Source: Utricularia gibba
Taxonomy: Eukaryota > Streptophyta > Magnoliopsida > Lamiales > Lentibulariaceae
Length of the DNA stretch: 64,000 nucleotides
Direction: 5' to 3'
Assembly (NCBI GenBank): GCA_002189035.1
Contig: NEEC01000016.1
Coordinates: 1,426,001-1,490,000, forward strand
This document shows positions 31,501 to 49,607 of the stretch, in pieces; the first letter of the stretch is position 1, and every line of letters begins with the position of its first letter. The translations under genes and the position numbers were made by a program. The notes under the pieces are model-generated. The model was not told where the DNA came from, ran no database searches, and was given only the letters and a program-made list of their open reading frames with translations.

Positions 31501-33326
31501 TCACTGGTGAAGCAGAAGCTTGCATGCCTTGGTACACTCTGAAGTTCGGATACATCACAATGGCTATGCTGTCTTTATGTTTGCAGCTGCCTTCCTCTTG
31601 CAACCGGATTCAGTTCCTCATCCTAGTTTTTGGCCTGTGCCCGGGATCGTTACGAAGAACTGCAGTTTTTCCTTATCCGGTAAGAACTTAGCGCAGAACA
31701 TGAACTCGGATCGCACCTCCCCTATCGTTGAAGGCCTGCATCTGATGGTTGCTGCACTTTTTGTGGCGAGGAACTGAGGCTTCAGCCAACCTGAGCATAT
31801 CTTTTTGCTTCTCTGTTGTACAGATGCGTTGTACTGATGTATGCCAAGAAACGTAAACCTGTTGACAATCCCGCCTACGCATTCACCAATGGAATTCTCA
31901 TCCTGTTCTGGATGAGTAACAAGAAAGAAAAGGCTGCTGGTTTGCAGTGTTTTGGTGTACGTAGGATATCGCCAGTTGTCGTCATTGTCCGGCTTAGGCA
32001 ACGAAGAAGCTTGGGAGAAGGGTAGAGGAGACAGGTGGCGATCATTCGCCATGGAGGGGGGCTGTGGAACAGGGGAAGAAGAATAGACGCCGCCGCTCAA
32101 TCCTGAATTCCGATGATAGGTTTGCGCTTGCTTCGATACGTTCGGCTACTGTCCTCCCGGGTCTCTGAACTTGGTAAGATGAATTTTAGACGGAAGCTTC
32201 AAACCCTGGTCGACTCGGAAATGCATTCCTGTGCGGCTGCTTTGCTTCCTTGAGATCTTGCAGTTTCCTGTATCACTCTCTTCGTAATTCTGCCGTGGTT
32301 TGCGATTGAGAAGACGCGATCATGTTCATTGTTGTTGTTAGTATCATTGTTGCTGTTATCGGAATCGGTGGAGTTGGAGGAAGAGGTTTCTGGGCAGGTG
32401 CCCCCCCTTCTTCGATATTTTTACCCTTCCGGGCTTCATGTTTCAAGGGAAATGTGAGGACTGGGGATTCTTTTCTTGTTTCTTTTCCAACAATTTCTGG
32501 GAGAAGGAGAAGAATTCAGGGCGATACAATCACGCGGGGTTCTTACAGGGGCACCATTTTTCGGTTCTTTGTTTGGTCACAGTCGAGGAGATGATTCTGA
32601 GCGGATCCGAGGATTCGACGATTCGGATATGGATAAATATGAACTGGCGCCCATTTCTTGTTAGCAATCACTGTTGGGATATACGGAAGTGTTGGAATTT
32701 CAGGCAAACCATATGGATGTCTTATTTAGATTTTGGAGCAGTAGTAGTGCTTGTGATCAGACATGCATTTTCTTAATCGAGAAACAGGCACATGCGCACA
32801 CCACCGACGGACCTTTGGACGTCTGATGCTTGCCATGGACAAACTCTTTGTACTCAGATTCTTCTTCATCTTTTCGTGCAGAGAACCTGGCTGTTCTCCC
32901 AACAGGCAGCAACATCATGTAAAAGGAGAGTGAATGAATCATTTCACTTGCATAAGATGCAACTCAAGGCTTACTTGAAGAGCTGGAGGTCTCCGCGAGT
33001 TCTCTACCCGCTGTTTCAGATGAAATCAGGGCTGCAATCAAGAGTAAGGCAACAAGGAGACGTGACCTGAAGCCCATATTTGGATGCAGACGTTGGAGGT
33101 AGTTTTCTTTGTTATTTAATTAAACTCACCTTGAAAGGTGTCACTGATTCAAGAATCACGTCTATCTGATACCCTCAGCGTCTTCCACGTATTTTCTTCC
33201 AGTGGGAATTGGATAGACTTGCTTCTCTGTAAATTGAAGATATTGGCTTTGGCTTCATGTTAATCAATCGTAAAATGTTCATTCTACAGGAGTTAAGAAG
33301 TAAAGATCGCGTTTTGGGTGCGTGAT
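31501..33326. other. Unassigned region with a WD40-like segment
   Basis: It includes the POLD1 3' UTR. On the plus strand 32550-32632 translates to a WD40-like blade ending ILSGSEDSTIRIW, preceded by an AG acceptor-like site. A later open piece in another frame (about 32966-33102) ends in RRRDLKPIFGCRRWR and a stop. A minus-strand stretch near 32200-32400 is open and Asn/Ser-rich. I could not link these into one gene model or name a product. It may be a gene I do not recognise or a gene relic. Confidence 0.3.
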
Positions 33327-35434
33327 TTATGGCGTAGGTGGGATTGAGAAAATCCCCTTGATTCCGGAGCCAGAGCACTTGCACCTGAGAATGATGTAAA
33401 CCGTGAGTCTGTAGACCAAGATGAAGCAAACCATGATCACGTAGTTTCTGTTACGAGCCTCAGTCGTAACTGCTCCTTGAGCTCTCGTCACCGGACGAGT
33501 GCGAGTGAAATCTTTTGCGGTCAGAGGTCTGAACGCAGCCCTCTTCTTGTTCCCTATCTTGCAAGATGTGAACAAGCCAATTAATTTCCAAAGCTGTCTC
33601 CACACAGACGTTCTACCTATTTATCCCTTACATGAGGTGGGCCTCACTGAAGCCCAAGCTACCTCACCCTACATAACACAACACTCGACAAAATTTAACA
33701 CCTAACAGGTCACAACGACATTAGTCCTCTTAATTCTTGGCACTTGGCCTTCTTGAGTAACATATCGGTTCCTTGGTAGCGGTGAGGTTCCTCACAGTTT
33801 CTCCATCTTTTGTTGTCGTCTCTAATGAATCCTTGTTCTCTCAGGACATCTTCCCCTGTAAAAACGCACTGCCCCATCATGAAATCCAGGCATTTCATGC
33901 CTGAGAACTCGTTGATCACCAATCCTTCGAAGGGGTACTTGAACAGGGATATGTAGTGCATGAATAGCCAGTAGTTTGGGATCCCCTGGTTGAACACGAA
34001 ATAGCCAGAGAAAAGGAAGAAGCCACCCATCACGGCTGATATTACTGAGAATGATCCAGATGAGGAGTAGGAAATGGCCGAACGCTGTGAAGCTCGGGTT
34101 CAGTCCTACGAGCCAATACAGTGGAACGGAGAACAAGATTGCTTGAATGAACAAGAAGGGAAGGTAAACTATCCCATTAGCAATTGCATAAGATGACACC
34201 TTGTAGCTTCCATTTGATGTTTCCTTCATTAGAATCTCCTTTTCTTGCAGAAAGATCGGCAGAGCGTCTATGGTGCTCGTGAGCAATAATGTCAACATGA
34301 ATGCAAATAACCCCATTCTCTCTTGTGTTCCTGTTATCCCATCCTTCAGATGGTAGAAGATAGAGCCAAGAACTAGCCCAGAAACCAGCATTGCGATTGA
34401 TCTGAAAGCAAATAGTTCTTTCGTTCTGCTGATGTTCATCCAGAATCTGTGGATGAGAATAGCGGTTTCACGGATCCATGAATTGGCAAATGTTTGGGGG
34501 AAATCAGGTGCGATTTTAATGGTTCCCTCGTCCACCGCTTTAGACTGCTGAAAGAGTTGTTGCAGAGTGAATCTCCCTGTTTTGCTCAGGCCTTCTTCCT
34601 TTCATGAATATGGACTTTCCTGATCCCTTTTTTCCAGTTGCTTCATGGCGTCGATCGATTCGATTGCGTGCTCAACGATATTGACATGATGCGGGATTTC
34701 GAGTCCCATCACCGCCATGTTGACGGAGAGAAGATCGACTCCGCCGTGGTGAAGAACACCACCATCAGCTAGGAGGAGAACAGAATTGAATTGCTTCACA
34801 AGTCTGAAGGCAGGCTGATGAATGCTCAGAACTATGGTACGTCCCTTCGTCTCCGCCATTGTTTTCAGCATGTCGATGATCTGAAAGGCAGAGCAACTAT
34901 CCAACCCTGACGTCGGCTCATCGAGAATCACCACCTTAGGTGAGTGAATAACCTCTACACCAATGGACACGCGGCCCCGCTCCCCACCAGAAATTCCCCT
35001 GACTCTGTCATCCCCCACCCTTTCCCCAGCCACATGACTCAGTCCAGCTCCTTCATCAAGGACTCCACCCGGAGACTCAGCTCCGGCTCCGGTAGACCCA
35101 ACCAGAGCTTCCCGCTGAACCTGAGAGTTTCCTCAACTATCAAGAAGGGAAACAATGTATCCCTCTGTGTTACATATCCTGACATTTTCCTGAACCAGGC
35201 TTTCTCCACCGGCTGTCCATTGACGACGAGGGAAGCCGATTGCGGAACGAGTCTTCCAGCGAGAATTTCCAGCAGCGACGACTTGCCGGCTCCACTGGGG
35301 CCAACGATGGCCAAGATCTTCCATGGCCTTGCCCTCAAGGCAACATTTTTGAGTACCCTCCGCCGTGCCCCGTTCACGTTTATGAAGTAGTTGATGTCGG
35401 TGGCCTCGATCTCACAGCCCTGCTTCTTCTTCAT
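33327..35434 (-). pseudogene. ABCG half-transporter pseudogene (ABCG5/ABCG10-like)
   Basis: Single-exon, minus strand, start at 35434 (MKKKQGCEIEA, as in ABCG5-type proteins). Visible: Walker A GPSGAGKSS; ABC signature SGGERGR; Walker B VVILDEPTSGLD; the H-loop SIHQP; then ABC2 membrane segments ([39 protein letters not shown]). Intact relatives export lipids or hormones across the plasma membrane. Lesions: one base lost from a G run at about 35044, after LMKEL; an in-frame TGA at 34602-34604 between the two halves; a deletion of roughly 70 bases near 34040-34046, removing a transmembrane stretch and shifting frame; and an insertion at 33450-33795 that separates RWRN from the C-terminal YVIMVCFILVYR segment. 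Several independent breaks make it a pseudogene. Confidence 0.88.
33450..33795. mobile_element. Small insertion element in the ABCG pseudogene
   Basis: A 346-bp segment lies between two copies of AGTTTCT (33443-33449 and 33796-33802). Removing the segment and one copy joins RWRN directly to YVIMVCF in frame, so it is an insertion with a 7-bp target duplication. Its ends are short palindromes (GTGAGGAACCTCAC at one end, GTTACGA...TCGTAAC at the other) that loosely match each other (10 of 13). It codes for nothing. It is a non-autonomous DNA element of uncertain superfamily. Confidence 0.7.
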
Positions 35435-37687
35435 TGCAGATGTTGTTCCAAGAACGAGGAAGAGGAAGCCTGTTTCGCATGTGCCTTGCCCCTCCGTGAA
35501 GTTGTAATGTGGAGTCCGGAGCAGATCATTGGCTCCTCGTTTATACAAGCGACCTATCTGTCTGGTAATTCACGTGCTGCTTGAAGATATGTTGTGCAGT
35601 TGTTTGGAGCAACGATGGTGCTTGAGCTTGAGAAGTTGATTTCAAAAAGACAGTTAGCTACAACAGGTAAGTCTTGGGAATATTTAAACTACTTACTATG
35701 AAAGAGTCGACCGTTGCGGTAGATAGTGGGCTTCATTTGATGATTTGGTTTTGGGCTTTTCCATGCTGATGTCGGGCCTCATTCTCTAGTCGACCCAGGT
35801 TTCCCTCTCCTCCAGAATCGCAGCATTACAGAGACGCGGGTGCGCGGAGTCCTTCAGGGTTTTGGGTTTAGGGTTTCCCTAAACCCTAAACCCTAAGTCC
35901 TTCAGCATGGAGAGCTGATGCAGCACAATCTAACACTACTCCCGTGCCCTGGATTCGAAATCGCCATCTTCTAACACATGGCAACATGTTACATGGTACA
36001 CCTGTCTAGTCGATGAAAAAAACCGTCAAATATCTGTCTGGTACTGGGGGCATATATGGGATATCGTGGACATGGACAAGCCTAGATGAGTGCATAATGC
36101 CTTGTGTTCTGTGGTGGAGATTGCATGTGTTTTTTGTACAGGTGGGCGAGGGGGGCGTTTGCTCTGCAGTATCAGCCTCAAGATCTTTCTACCCTCAGAA
36201 GGAACAATATCTAGTGTCCGTACGCTCCTCCGACAAGAGGCCTAGGCAGGGACACAAGACAAGAGCAACAACCCAGGCCTCGTATCTACATTCAAAATAT
36301 CAGATAAAATGGTTCGCATGAAAGAAAGAAAGAATTTCTGGCCACAGGAGCAGAGAAATATCGGAGGGTCTCTCTTCCTGTGTCCTCTTCTCCCGAGGTA
36401 TTCAACCCGTGAGCTTCTGATGAAAACACTTGGCCGCATTTAGGAAGACCCTAATGACCCCCGTTTCCTTTCAGGCCAAGTGGAACCACGGCATGGCGCC
36501 CGTCTCAATGCAGCCCCCGGAGAAAATGGACATGGGGTTTGCAATTGCAGAAATGTTTGCTGCTAAAAGGTTAGACAATACTTTCGGGGTGGGTTTGTAG
36601 GATTGTTTTGAATAGGGTTTATTAGGTTATGGGAAACCAAGTGGCGGTGGGTGTCCGAATGGGAAGATTCCATTGTTTTTGTCATTTTCTTTATAAGGAT
36701 CTACTCATTCAATGCAGTGCAGCACCTAAAAGAAGAATATGTATACCTTGTGACTTTCTGATAACTACATTTTAACCCCCAATACTTGCGAAATTAACGC
36801 AAGACGCCATTTGTGAGCCATCCCTTCCCCGCTGTCGCTCTGCAGTGGAAGTTTTGTTAATCTCATGTCCACCTCCTCTGCTCTGTCTATTGAAGTGTGC
36901 TACTGAGAAACTCGCATCTTGGGATTGTTTGTAAAATGGGGTCCTTTTCTCTTCTTCTTTTTCTTTATCGCGTATATTGTTGCTCCCTAAAACGCTCGAG
37001 TCTGTTTTTAATTTAGGGAATGATCCACGACTCTTCTGATTTCATGCAATGTGTTTGATCAATGCTCCTTGAGAAAAAAAGAAGAACAAGAAACGAAAAG
37101 ATTCATTTTTCTTGATGCGTGATGCAAAAACTTTTAATTTTTTATGCTGGAGGTTTAAAATCAGGAAGTGGAGATTTTCCTACTACTTGTCCGATGCATA
37201 TGATTCATTTTGTTGAAGAATCAAATAAGTAGAGTAATAAGAATAACAGAAGTAATAAAAAAGAGGACAAATAAAGAAATTGATAATTCTAAATTAGAAA
37301 TGAAAATTATAAGATGATTCAAAATCATTTATTCAGTTAAAGGAAAGTCAAGCCATGTGTTTCTACATTTTAAGAAAATCATCTCCAAGATCAAGGAAAT
37401 AATTAAAAATAAAATGAAGATAATATTTTTTAACCATAAATTATGAATCTAAAAACAACTCTTGTGTTATGAATGATTTATGTTCCATGTTTTTCTTATT
37501 CTAATTTATGATGTAAAAAACAAACTTTATGCATACTTTTTTTTTATTTATTGTATTTTTTGTTATCATAGTAATTTATAATTTTTTTTCCTATGGATTA
37601 TTCCTTTCTCATTGATTCAATAACTTCTATGCCATCTTCTATCATCACAATCATGATAGAGACTCATGACACAACCAATAACCCTAC
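35435..37687. other. Gene-free stretch upstream of the ABCG pseudogene
   Basis: Apart from the telomere-repeat insert listed separately, I see no exon or repeat family. Sequence is mixed-composition to about 36900 and then strongly AT-rich. A short open plus-strand stretch near 36480-36600 has no recognisable homology. Confidence 0.45.
35849..35905. repeat. Interstitial telomeric repeats, head to head, with 9-bp flanking duplication
   Basis: Two copies of GTCCTTCAG (35849-35857 and 35897-35905) flank 39 bases made of TTTAGGG-type units running into CCCTAAA units in the opposite direction. The plant telomere unit is TTTAGGG. The inverted arrangement gives a near-palindrome. Confidence 0.85.
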
Positions 37688-44519: not shown

Positions 44520-45300
44520 TGAATGATTGGAATAATATGGCAAAGAGGAAAAATAAATTACAAGATGATGAATCAAATTCAGAAAGAGGAATATGGAAAA
44601 TACGAATAGCATGAAATAATAATTTTTTTTATTATACTTTGATTTTTATTTTTAAAGATTTGAAGATGAATAATATAGTATTAATCAGTTAAAAAAATGA
44701 AGGTAAATTAACAAAATTAGAAATATGATACTCTTTTAAAAATCTTATAAAAATATTAATTTTATAAATATTTTGATTTAATTATTAATATAATTTGATT
44801 TAAAATTCAAAATAATATTTTTTTTCAAGCTTTGAGCCAAACAACCCGTCGACCCATTAACTTGTGATCAATACACGATTTGAACGAAATTTGATTAAAA
44901 CCTGTGAAGCTGACCCATATAGGAGTCCAAATTATATGCTCGTCCATAAATTAGATCCATCGATTTGACAAACCCATCGGGCCCAACCCATACCCACCAC
45001 TATTTGAAACCTTCTGCTTGGCGAGATCTTGGCATCCAGTGAAGTTATTAGGGTTTGTTTGGTTAGAGATATTGCTAGGTATGGGATTTGATGATTATTA
45101 GGTATTTGAGAGTAATTGGTATGGGATGGAATATGTTAATGATGTGTTTGGTTAGAATAAAAAGGGATAGGATTTGTTTTAATTTTTTTTATTATTTTAT
45201 ATCAATTACAATTATACCCCTAAATAAAAAAAAAAATAAAATTCTATTTAATAATGTGTCTTCTTTATTTTTTGTCACTAGGGTTCTCCCGCTTTAGAGA

Positions 45301-46574
45301 ATGGTGCGAAGTTCTTCAAGCAATCGTCCAAGAACAGCTGTGGTGGCTGATGAAGGTCAATTTTGAGAGTTTCATTCTTGTTCTATGATTAGTATTGTAT
45401 ATAGCCCATGTTTTTAGTTGTTAGAAATGAAACAATTGATTGTTTATGAAAAAAGTTCAATTCTTTTGCTTTAACATTTGATTATTTCCATTGTTGTTGC
45501 GAAATGACACAAGTGATTTCATTGTTGTGACAAGTGATTTTTGCTGTTGTTGCTCTTTTATTCGTTTTAAAAATATGCAAGTTTGTGTAAATGGCAGCAC
45601 CTTAATTTTAATCCTATTTACTAATGCATGACTATATTAATTTGTGGTGTAGATGAGGATCATGGAAAAAGAATTTGGGTTGAGGAAGAAGAAAACGCCT
45701 TGATCCTTGCTTTCAAACAGATAATTGTAGATAAGTGGAAGTGCAATTATTCATTTAAAGCCGGATATCTTAATGTATTGGAGGATATCTTAAAGAAAAT
45801 GTTACCAAGGGCTAACATTAAGGGTAACCCCCATATTTCTTCTAAATATAAGGTTTGGAAAAGGAACTTTGGAAAGGTACATGACTTTGTTTCAAGATCT
45901 AAAAACAGCCTTGATTTAATCACACATAAGATTGATACAACTAAGGAGCATTGGGATGAGTTGTTAAAGGTACAATTTAATTGAATTTTCGATTTAACAT
46001 TATGTATACTAATTCATACAATTTTATTGTTTTCTTTTCTTTTGCATAGCATGATAAGAAAACTTATATTACTTTGAAAGATAAAGTTTTTCCCTACTAT
46101 AATGATTGGCTTGAGATCTTTGGTAAAGATCGTGCAAATGGAAGTTGTACAATAGGAGCGACTAATGAAAGATTAGAGGATATTGCTGCCTCTTCACCCA
46201 ACCTTACAAGTGAATCTGGATTTTCAGCACATATGGGTAGTGGTACTAATCTTGAAGAGTCTCCTTCAACTTATGGTGAAAGTAGTAGACCAAAGAAAAG
46301 GAAAAAAGTTGACGATATTAGTCCGTTTTGGGATAGAATGGAGGCTTTGGCGAAGAGAAACAATGACTCATTCATGAATGCGATGCAAATGTTAACAGTA
46401 GCAGAAATTGAAAGACAAAAGGCTCGTGACATAATACGTGGTATGAACATTACTAAGGTCGAAAAGATTGCAGCTTACACCAATCTTCTTAATGATTCAG
46501 CTCGTGTGTCATGCTTCATAGACTTGAATGAAGAAGATCGTGAAGATTATCTGAAAGACATTGCTTTCTATTAG
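45301..46574 (+). CDS. Harbinger ORF1: Myb/SANT-like DNA-binding protein
   Basis: In PIF/Harbinger transposition, ORF1 binds DNA and cooperates with the transposase, helping it reach the nucleus and the element ends. Three exons (45301-45355, 45653-45969, 46050-46574) with matching phases give about 298 residues and no break. The N-terminal half has the trihelix-like Myb/SANT pattern: W at IWVEEEE, W at VDKWKC, then FKAGYLNVLEDILKKMLP and ISSKYKVWKRNFGKVHDF. The middle has a basic SRPKKRKKVDD nuclear-import-like stretch, and the C-terminal part is helical. It lies inside the element's left half, running towards the transposase gene. Confidence 0.85.
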
Positions 46575-46644
46575 TTATGCTATGACTACTTTTTGTAGTA
46601 GACTGATCTTTTGTTTGGAGTTGCTATTCCCCTTGTTCTAGTTA

Positions 46645-47045
46645 ACTGCAGAATATCGAACTGCACGATTGTCATGTTTCGTAGTATTTCTGTTATGAGC
46701 CGTTGTGATTCAGAAAATGTGTTTAACATGAAAATTGTAGCCCTTCGAATGTAGTTTCCGTAGAATTTCAAAACGCTCAATTTGGATCACTATGTCAAAA
46801 TGTGTGTTTAATTTCCTATAAATTGCCGTTTGACAGCATTGGCTGCAAAATATTGAACTGCACGACTGTCATGTTTCGTAACATTTCTGTTATGATCCGT
46901 TGTGATTAAGAAAATGTGTTTAAAATGACAATTGTAGCCCTTCGAGTGTAGTTTTTTTGTAGAATTTTAAAACACTCAATTTGGATCACCACGTCATAAT
47001 TTGTGTTTAATTTCCTATAAGTTGCTGTTTGATGGCATTGGCTGC
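46645..47045. repeat. Tandem duplication of about 200 bp between the Harbinger genes
   Basis: Two adjacent copies of about 200 bases, both containing TGTCATGTTTCGTA, TTGTAGCCCTTCGA and CTCAATTTGGATCAC, and ending in a CATTGGCTGCA-type junction. They differ at a modest fraction of positions. They lie between the 3' ends of the two convergent genes. Confidence 0.85.
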
Positions 47046-47124
47046 AGACAATATAGAGTTAAAAAATTTTACATACGATAACAAGTTCATGACTTAAAAC
47101 AATATAGAGGTTCAACACTTGAAA

Positions 47125-48558
47125 CTAAACATTCAACCATTCTTCAGACATTGTAGTAGCAAGATCATCACATAAACCATTCCAAGCAGGGGTAGATTCA
47201 ACCGTATCAATGTAATCTTGACCTTCTTTATTTACCTCTTGATAATCTTCTGGGACTTTCTCGACGTATGAAATTATGGAGTAAGACACATGCGATGATC
47301 ATTCTCGTTTGTGTCTGGATGGCATAGAAGGATGGACTCCGTAGAATACCCCATCGTTTTTTTATTATTCCCCATGCTCTCTCAATTACGTTTCTTGCCT
47401 TCGCATGTCACATATTGTAATATTCCTTTTCATTTTGTGGTACTTCCATTCCAGACCCCCATTCCTTTAGATGGTAGCGTACACCACGATACGGGGTTAG
47501 AAACCCCTCACAATTAGTATATCCACAATCACCTAAATAGTAATAAACTACAAAAATAATCAACTTAGATAGTCACTCAAATTGTCACATTTTTTCAAAA
47601 ATTGCAGCTTGTTTTATGTAAAATGACTGATGTTCATCATGTAATCTGAAATTTAATCAAGTTAACAACAAAAAGAATAATTTGATCACATAAACATTCA
47701 TAACTTAATAAAAAAACAAAGATAATCAACCAGTAAATAGAATCTATAAGGTCATATACACCATGCATTAAAAGCAACAACATAAAAAAATGATATGTAG
47801 TCAAAATACTCATAAAAATAATCACATTACCTGTGCGAACACGAAAACTTAGATTCCGAGTAAGTGCATGATGTAGAACACGCCCATCCGCAGCCGAACC
47901 TTTCCAACCGACAAGTATATATATAAAGTTCATTTTCTCGTTGCAAACCCCTAAAATGTTGGTTGATATTCCACCTTTATAACTTCTATAACGCCCTTTT
48001 TCAGACTTTTTATCCGTAACATCTACAAATGTTCCATCTAAAGCCCCCAAACAATTTTTAAAATATTTGAAAGGAGTTTCCAATTATAGGTTCCGGTTTC
48101 ACTAACAAAATATCATGTAATCTCAAAATACACTGAATTACGGATTTAACATACTTGCTAATAGTCTCACTAGACCTTTTAAAGTCGAACTTAAGAACTC
48201 TCATTTTCTTGTGATGACTTAGAACACTAAGAAAAATGGCTACTTTTTCAGATACTGTAACATATTTCGATGATTTCAATCCACCACGAATAGATAATAA
48301 AACACATAAACGTTTGAAAATATCTTCGTTGATCCTAAGATTTTCAAGAGAAGCACCTCGACGATCACTAAATAAATCTCTTAAATATGTAATTTGTCTA
48401 GGAATTCTTTCTTTCATAGAGTAGGTGATTCGGGCTCTAGAATTTTGACGCAGCTTCCTAACCCAAAACCAGAAAAATGCATACTCCATTTGTAACAAAT
48501 TATTTGAATGAAACTTCAACATGAGCATTAAAAATTCAGTGAAAACATTTGGATTCAT
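47125..48558 (-). pseudogene. Harbinger DDE transposase, frame-broken
   Basis: ALP1/PIF-type transposase (DDE_Tnp_4). N-terminal part 48558 to about 48084 (RITYSMKERIPRQ, YVTVSEKVAIFL, KRSSETISKYVKSV). Catalytic part: first D in GALDGTF, then SAADGRVL. Intron at 47830-47533 (GT-AG). Second D in GDCGYTN, then LTPYRGVRYHLKEW. Third residue E in NVIERAWGIIKKRWG, then LLHNFIRRE. The C-terminal piece has TPAWNGL, ending at 47125. Breaks: a frame change around 48060-48083 between EPI and YFKNCLGALDG; an in-frame TGA at 47408-47410, where homologues have Arg in NMRHAKARN; and another frame change after HNFIRRE. The DDE triad is intact but this copy cannot make a full enzyme. Confidence 0.85.
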
Positions 48559-49587
48559 GGATAGTATAATTAATCAAACACTATGACAAAAAAATATTTC
48601 CAATTATTGAATTTAGGCATTAACTTGAAAACATGAAAATAATATCAAATTTAACATATGCTAATTTCATTGAACATTGAATTCTAATATCAAAAATTGT
48701 GCGAATCTAGGGATATTGAGCGAATTTAACCAAATTCTAAAAAAATAAACAACAAACCTGAGAGGAAATAAGGTAAATAGATCGCACGCAACTTTTCCCC
48801 AAAAGCCCAGCAAGAATCAATGATTCAATTGGCCAACTCGGAAATCTAGGTTTTTTGGGATGCTTCAATTGACCAGCGAAAAACGATGCTTCAAGTGTGA
48901 GAAGAAGGTATGTTTTATTTCAGTTTTTTTAATTAAATAGAAATTATAAAATTAAGGGTAAAATTGTAAATAAATTATAATGTATAATAAAGTTCGAGGA
49001 TTCAAGTCTTCACACCCAAATCCTATATCTTAGATATATTGAAGTAATTTTTTAAAAACCCATGGAATAAGCATAATTAATACCAAACATGAGATTTGTA
49101 GTCCAATCCTTCTAAAATAACCCCAATACCTCATACCAAACACATTCTTAAGGAACTTGCAAGTTCCGAAATTCACAGTGTTTTGCTTAGGCCAAATTAG
49201 CACCACTGGTGCCCAGCCCCTTCTTGTCATTCAACAATTAAATGCTCTTAGTAGTTGAATTCCTACAACTTTTCAACAAGAATTGTAGAAACTAATCTTG
49301 TTTGCTTTGCTTCTTTCCAAGCAATACTCAATGATGCATTGGCAGCACTGGCAGAGGAGACCATGACCGTGAAGACAGCAGCACCGACGCCAAAAAGAGC
49401 AGCCCTTCTTCCAGATTCATCAGAGTTTGAAACTTTGACCTGCTGTGCCTTGATCACTAGAAGTTTCTGTGCCTTGATCACTAGAAGTTGACCAGAAGCA
49501 GCGTAGTTACAGGCCAGAATTCTGGAGTTAAAGAATGGAGAATGAGCTTCAAAAAAATAAAAATATAAAACAGTAAATATGGATAGT

Positions 49588-49607
49588 GGGGGGGGGGGGG
49601 GGGGGGG
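49588..49607. repeat. Poly-G run of 20
   Basis: A homopolymer of 20 G, just upstream (minus sense) of the psaN pseudogene. Its length is likely uncertain in any assembly. Confidence 0.9.

Follow-up and report, generated by a model that had tools for sequence, protein, structure and literature searches.

A PIF/Harbinger-type transposon within exon 2 of a psaN pseudogene of Utricularia gibba

A transposon that sits within a copy of a photosystem gene raises the question whether its insertion destroyed a working gene or whether it arrived in a copy which was already decaying. We address this question for a copy of psaN, encoding photosystem I subunit N (PF05479), in Utricularia gibba. The copy lies in a contiguous stretch of 64,000 nucleotides which was analysed as a whole and is termed the window in the following.

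The element and its target site

The element and its parts are located as follows.

45051 to 49147, no strand: PIF/Harbinger-type transposon, 4,097 bp, structurally complete (from the sequence and sibling comparison)
45048 to 45050, no strand: target site duplication TTA, left copy
49148 to 49150, no strand: target site duplication TTA, right copy
45051 to 45063, plus strand: left terminal inverted repeat GGGTTTGTTTGGT (siblings: GGGTGTGTTTGGT)
49135 to 49147, minus strand: right terminal inverted repeat, reverse complement GAATGTGTTTGGT (sibling: GAGTGTGTTTGGT)
45300 to 46574, plus strand: ORF1 gene (Myb/SANT-like), frame open, exon borders inferred by eye
45303 to about 45356, about 45655 to 45971 and 46050 to 46574, plus strand: proposed exons of ORF1, borders by eye
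46646 to 47048, no strand: tandem duplication of about 200 bp between ORF1 and the transposase gene (element positions 1596-1797 versus 1793-1998)
47150 to 48558, minus strand: DDE_Tnp_4 transposase gene with one intron (inferred), frame broken (from the profile match and siblings)

An earlier reading of the sequence only had proposed a 4.1-kb element with TTA on both sides, and this was confirmed to the base. The terminal inverted repeats of 13 bp are imperfect, GGGTTTGTTTGGT and GAATGTGTTTGGT being alike at 10 of 13 positions. Both start with G, and PIF/Harbinger repeats start with G or A; the sibling repeats GGGTGTGTTTGGT and GAGTGTGTTTGGT conform as well. Several other genomic loci match the element over long stretches (75-94%). 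At two of them, L027 and L028, both ends have been kept. Since these two siblings terminate at the same bases as the element and have TWA duplications (TTA/TTA at L027 as here, TAA/TAA at L028), chance is excluded. For the window copy a paralogous empty site is moreover present on contig C505 (see below).

The transposase gene is recognised by the DDE_Tnp_4 profile (PF13359) in two parts with 27.4 bits (cut-off 24.8) and 50.1 bits, respectively, and the codons of the catalytic residues D, D and E are recognisable within 48050-48018, 47900-47874 and 47395-47369 of the minus strand. Compared to the siblings the gene is damaged at three places: 2 bp are deleted near 48079, a TGA codon occupies 47410-47408, and a further 26 bp are missing near 47256. 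ORF1 of the window copy scores 17.6 bits against the Pfam profile Myb_DNA-bind_3, below the cut-off of 23.6, and is assigned as Myb/SANT-like via its sibling at L031 with 27.9 bits. The N-terminal part of the transposase and exon 3 of ORF1 were not recognised by Pfam. The window copy has an open ORF1 despite its broken transposase, and stops or large deletions are found in ORF1 of every sibling examined. The arrangement of the tandem repeat of about 200 bp differs among the siblings.

By the TWA duplication, the terminal repeats starting with G, the DDE_Tnp_4 transposase and the Myb/SANT-like ORF1 the element is a PIF/Harbinger transposon, which upholds the proposed Harbinger identity. The published features of these two-gene DNA transposons (e.g. 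PIF, Ping and Pong) are a TWA duplication, two genes, short terminal inverted repeats and a length near 4.1 kb (PMC4482050; PMC2836001), with an average of about 4,124 bp (PMC4482050). The window copy shows no difference in kind, except that its transposase gene is broken. The earlier designation as a complete transposon thus holds for the structure and fails for the coding capacity, as the transposase is frameshifted and contains a stop. With this gene broken the element, as judged from its reading frames, could no longer supply its own transposase nor move by its own protein.

A decayed psaN copy opposite an intact gene

The host gene is present in two pieces.

49151 to 49529, minus strand: right piece of the psaN pseudogene with exon 1, intron 1 and the start of exon 2
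45006 to 45050, minus strand: left piece with the end of exon 2 and the first bases of intron 2

The end of exon 2 in the left piece is NNFTGCQDLAKQK (45011-45049, minus strand). With a single TTA left between them, the flanks read on the minus strand FGTCKF-LNNFTGCQDLAKQK, in full FGTCKF-L-N-NFTGCQDLAKQK, which is PsaN. Solved PsaN relatives (PDB) have FG[TS]CKFPENFTGCQDLAKQK in the region of the join. The insertion point lies between codons 122 and 123, and codons 121-125 are continuous over the joined junction. Searching the genome with the PsaN profile, in an assembly that may be incomplete, detected one sole gene (C505:942833-943363), whose three exons encode a complete protein of 164 residues. 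The joined flanks align to this intact gene with 295 of 377 positions identical (78%, E = 1e-85) and no gap at the junction. Thus the flanks are contiguous with psaN, the frame resumes exactly across the element as the sequence-only reading had claimed, and the functional second psaN which it had demanded was found. The gene on C505 can be taken as the paralogous empty site of the insertion. Its first intron (L004, C505:943.1 kb) is of the GC-AG type.

The earlier reading had also seen further lesions in the interrupted copy. We count at least seven, and the copy is a pseudogene. The start codon is gone. Exon 1 carries a clustered deletion (49472-49491) and a 4-bp deletion (49335). Intron 1 has lost its donor at 49296, where GC, itself the rarer type, is changed to AT, as well as its acceptor at 49237. 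In exon 2, Arg110 is replaced by a TAA stop (49189-49187) and 1 bp is inserted at 49184; in all there are two frameshifts. The homology to psaN reaches only the sixth base of intron 2, ending at about 45005, with the donor of intron 2 being kept, and exon 3 was not found in a search of the whole window. One piece scores 15 bits with the PsaN profile (cut-off 21), and the frame is not intact. Compared to PsaN, exons 1 and 2 and the position of intron 1 are still recognisable, but the window copy lacks the start codon and exon 3. It is therefore a gene fragment and not a gene which is otherwise whole.

Two further observations concern the surroundings. A dispersed repeat (43343 to about 44975), older and with at least seven further copies that are 71-77% alike, adjoins the breakpoint in intron 2 and may be a trace of the event in which exon 3 was lost. 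On the other side a long G run (49589-49607) is found immediately upstream of the expected position of the start codon.

The two segments can be aligned past the ends of psaN. The window and C505 share the same gene order of ABCG, psaN, MAPKKK-like kinase and P450 (names from translations, by eye). In both segments the kinase and the P450 are located to the right of psaN and the ABC transporter (ABCG-type) to the left. The psaN copies differ by a dS of 0.43 and a dN of 0.137, and the dS of ABCG and of the clean kinase exons is about 0.3-0.7 between the two segments. The duplication was segmental or, more likely, one of the whole genome. The ABCG-type gene of the window (33324-35442) is a pseudogene with a 62-bp deletion near 34048, frameshifts and a stop at 34604-34602, and its partner on C505 is open; loss of redundant copies on this segment is thus not limited to psaN. 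A single P450 gene (54406-55978) in the window corresponds to a tandem array of at least three on the collinear C505 segment.

Order of events and rival explanations

Whether psaN was already dead when the element arrived had been left undecided by the earlier reading. The question can be answered in part, and the evidence leans clearly to a copy that was already decaying or dead. On the minus strand the target site is CC-TGA-G in the intact gene versus CT-TAA-T in the window copy. Codon 123 encodes a glutamate (FPENFTGC) which is constant in the five PDB relatives aligned. As the element requires TWA, the first base of this codon must have changed from G to A, with loss of the glutamate, before the insertion; a single missense mutation alone is no proof of a dead gene. 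The terminal branch of the element is 0.029 substitutions per site, and the insertion is possibly older than this branch if the copy on C244 descends from the window element. Had psaN died only at the insertion, its mature part should carry about 4-6 missense changes (functional dN/dS 0.02-0.1); about 11.5 are observed (P = 0.004-0.04). The numbers are small (about 12 substitutions in the mature part), and significance is lost at a functional dN/dS of at least 0.15 for the mature part or of 0.3 overall. Small indels amount to about 5 in 3.3 kb of the element and to 6 in about 340 coding bases of psaN, or to 3 when the clustered deletion is taken as one event. The excess over the element's own rate has a probability of 1.8e-5, or of 0.016 with the cluster as one event. 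Because the mutated target codon, the missense load and the indel load agree, it is most likely that the element inserted into a psaN copy already in decay or dead.

It is conceivable, instead, that a second psaN still worked until the element inactivated it by inserting, and that every other lesion came later. The element does sit in coding sequence, and dN/dS over the whole interval since the duplication is about 0.32, so that the window copy was under selection for part of this time. The account becomes compatible with the data if a high functional dN/dS is assumed. It conflicts, however, with the TTA target, which needs the earlier missense change at an otherwise constant residue, and both the missense and the indel loads are too high for the short branch of the element. 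We consider it unlikely that the second psaN kept its function up to recent times and that the Harbinger insertion then eliminated it. If true, a transposon would here have driven one step in the loss of a photosystem I subunit gene following genome duplication. Much less probable still is an origin of the psaN piece as a retrocopy or as a gene fragment that another transposon had captured. The missing exon 3 and the older dispersed repeat next to the left piece would fit such an origin, but intron 1 is present in the same place and can be aligned, intron 2 retains its donor, and the neighbouring genes on either side follow the order seen at the intact locus. Because the neighbours are collinear and intron 1 is present, we regard the window psaN as the remnant of a duplicated segment and reject the retrocopy or gene-capture origin. 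For a chance match or an assembly chimera we found no supporting point; the join is gap-free at E = 1e-85, and siblings in other contigs have the target site duplication and the terminal repeats in common with the element, so that this explanation is close to negligible.

Proposed history and its meaning

We prefer the account in which duplication was followed by decay and only then by insertion into exon 2, and give it a probability of roughly 0.88. The join, the empty site, the duplicated segment and the lesions are seen directly. We infer the succession of events and the kind of duplication to be as follows. A chromosome segment would have been duplicated, probably by whole-genome duplication, giving two psaN copies. 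The copy on the C505 segment remained intact, and the window copy presumably lost selection and decayed. A missense mutation could then have created the TTA in exon 2 of the decaying gene, into which a PIF/Harbinger element would later have been cut and pasted with duplication of the TTA. The transposase gene of this element is now broken.

A literature search yielded no paper on a psaN pseudogene together with a transposon insertion. The insertion in melon CmEIN2 (PMC11161486) is likewise a Harbinger element in a plant gene; in melon the element struck a working gene and a phenotype resulted, whereas here it is a redundant and decaying duplicate.

The case adds one more instance of Harbinger transposition and of the loss of duplicate genes, both well-known processes. 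As the genome retains an intact psaN, nothing of wider consequence follows for photosystem I. The transposon, its target site, the empty site (in the duplicate) and the decayed host gene can here be read together, and the added value is that the order of events is read from the target site, which records that the host codon mutated first. A transposon within a gene thus need not have killed that gene.
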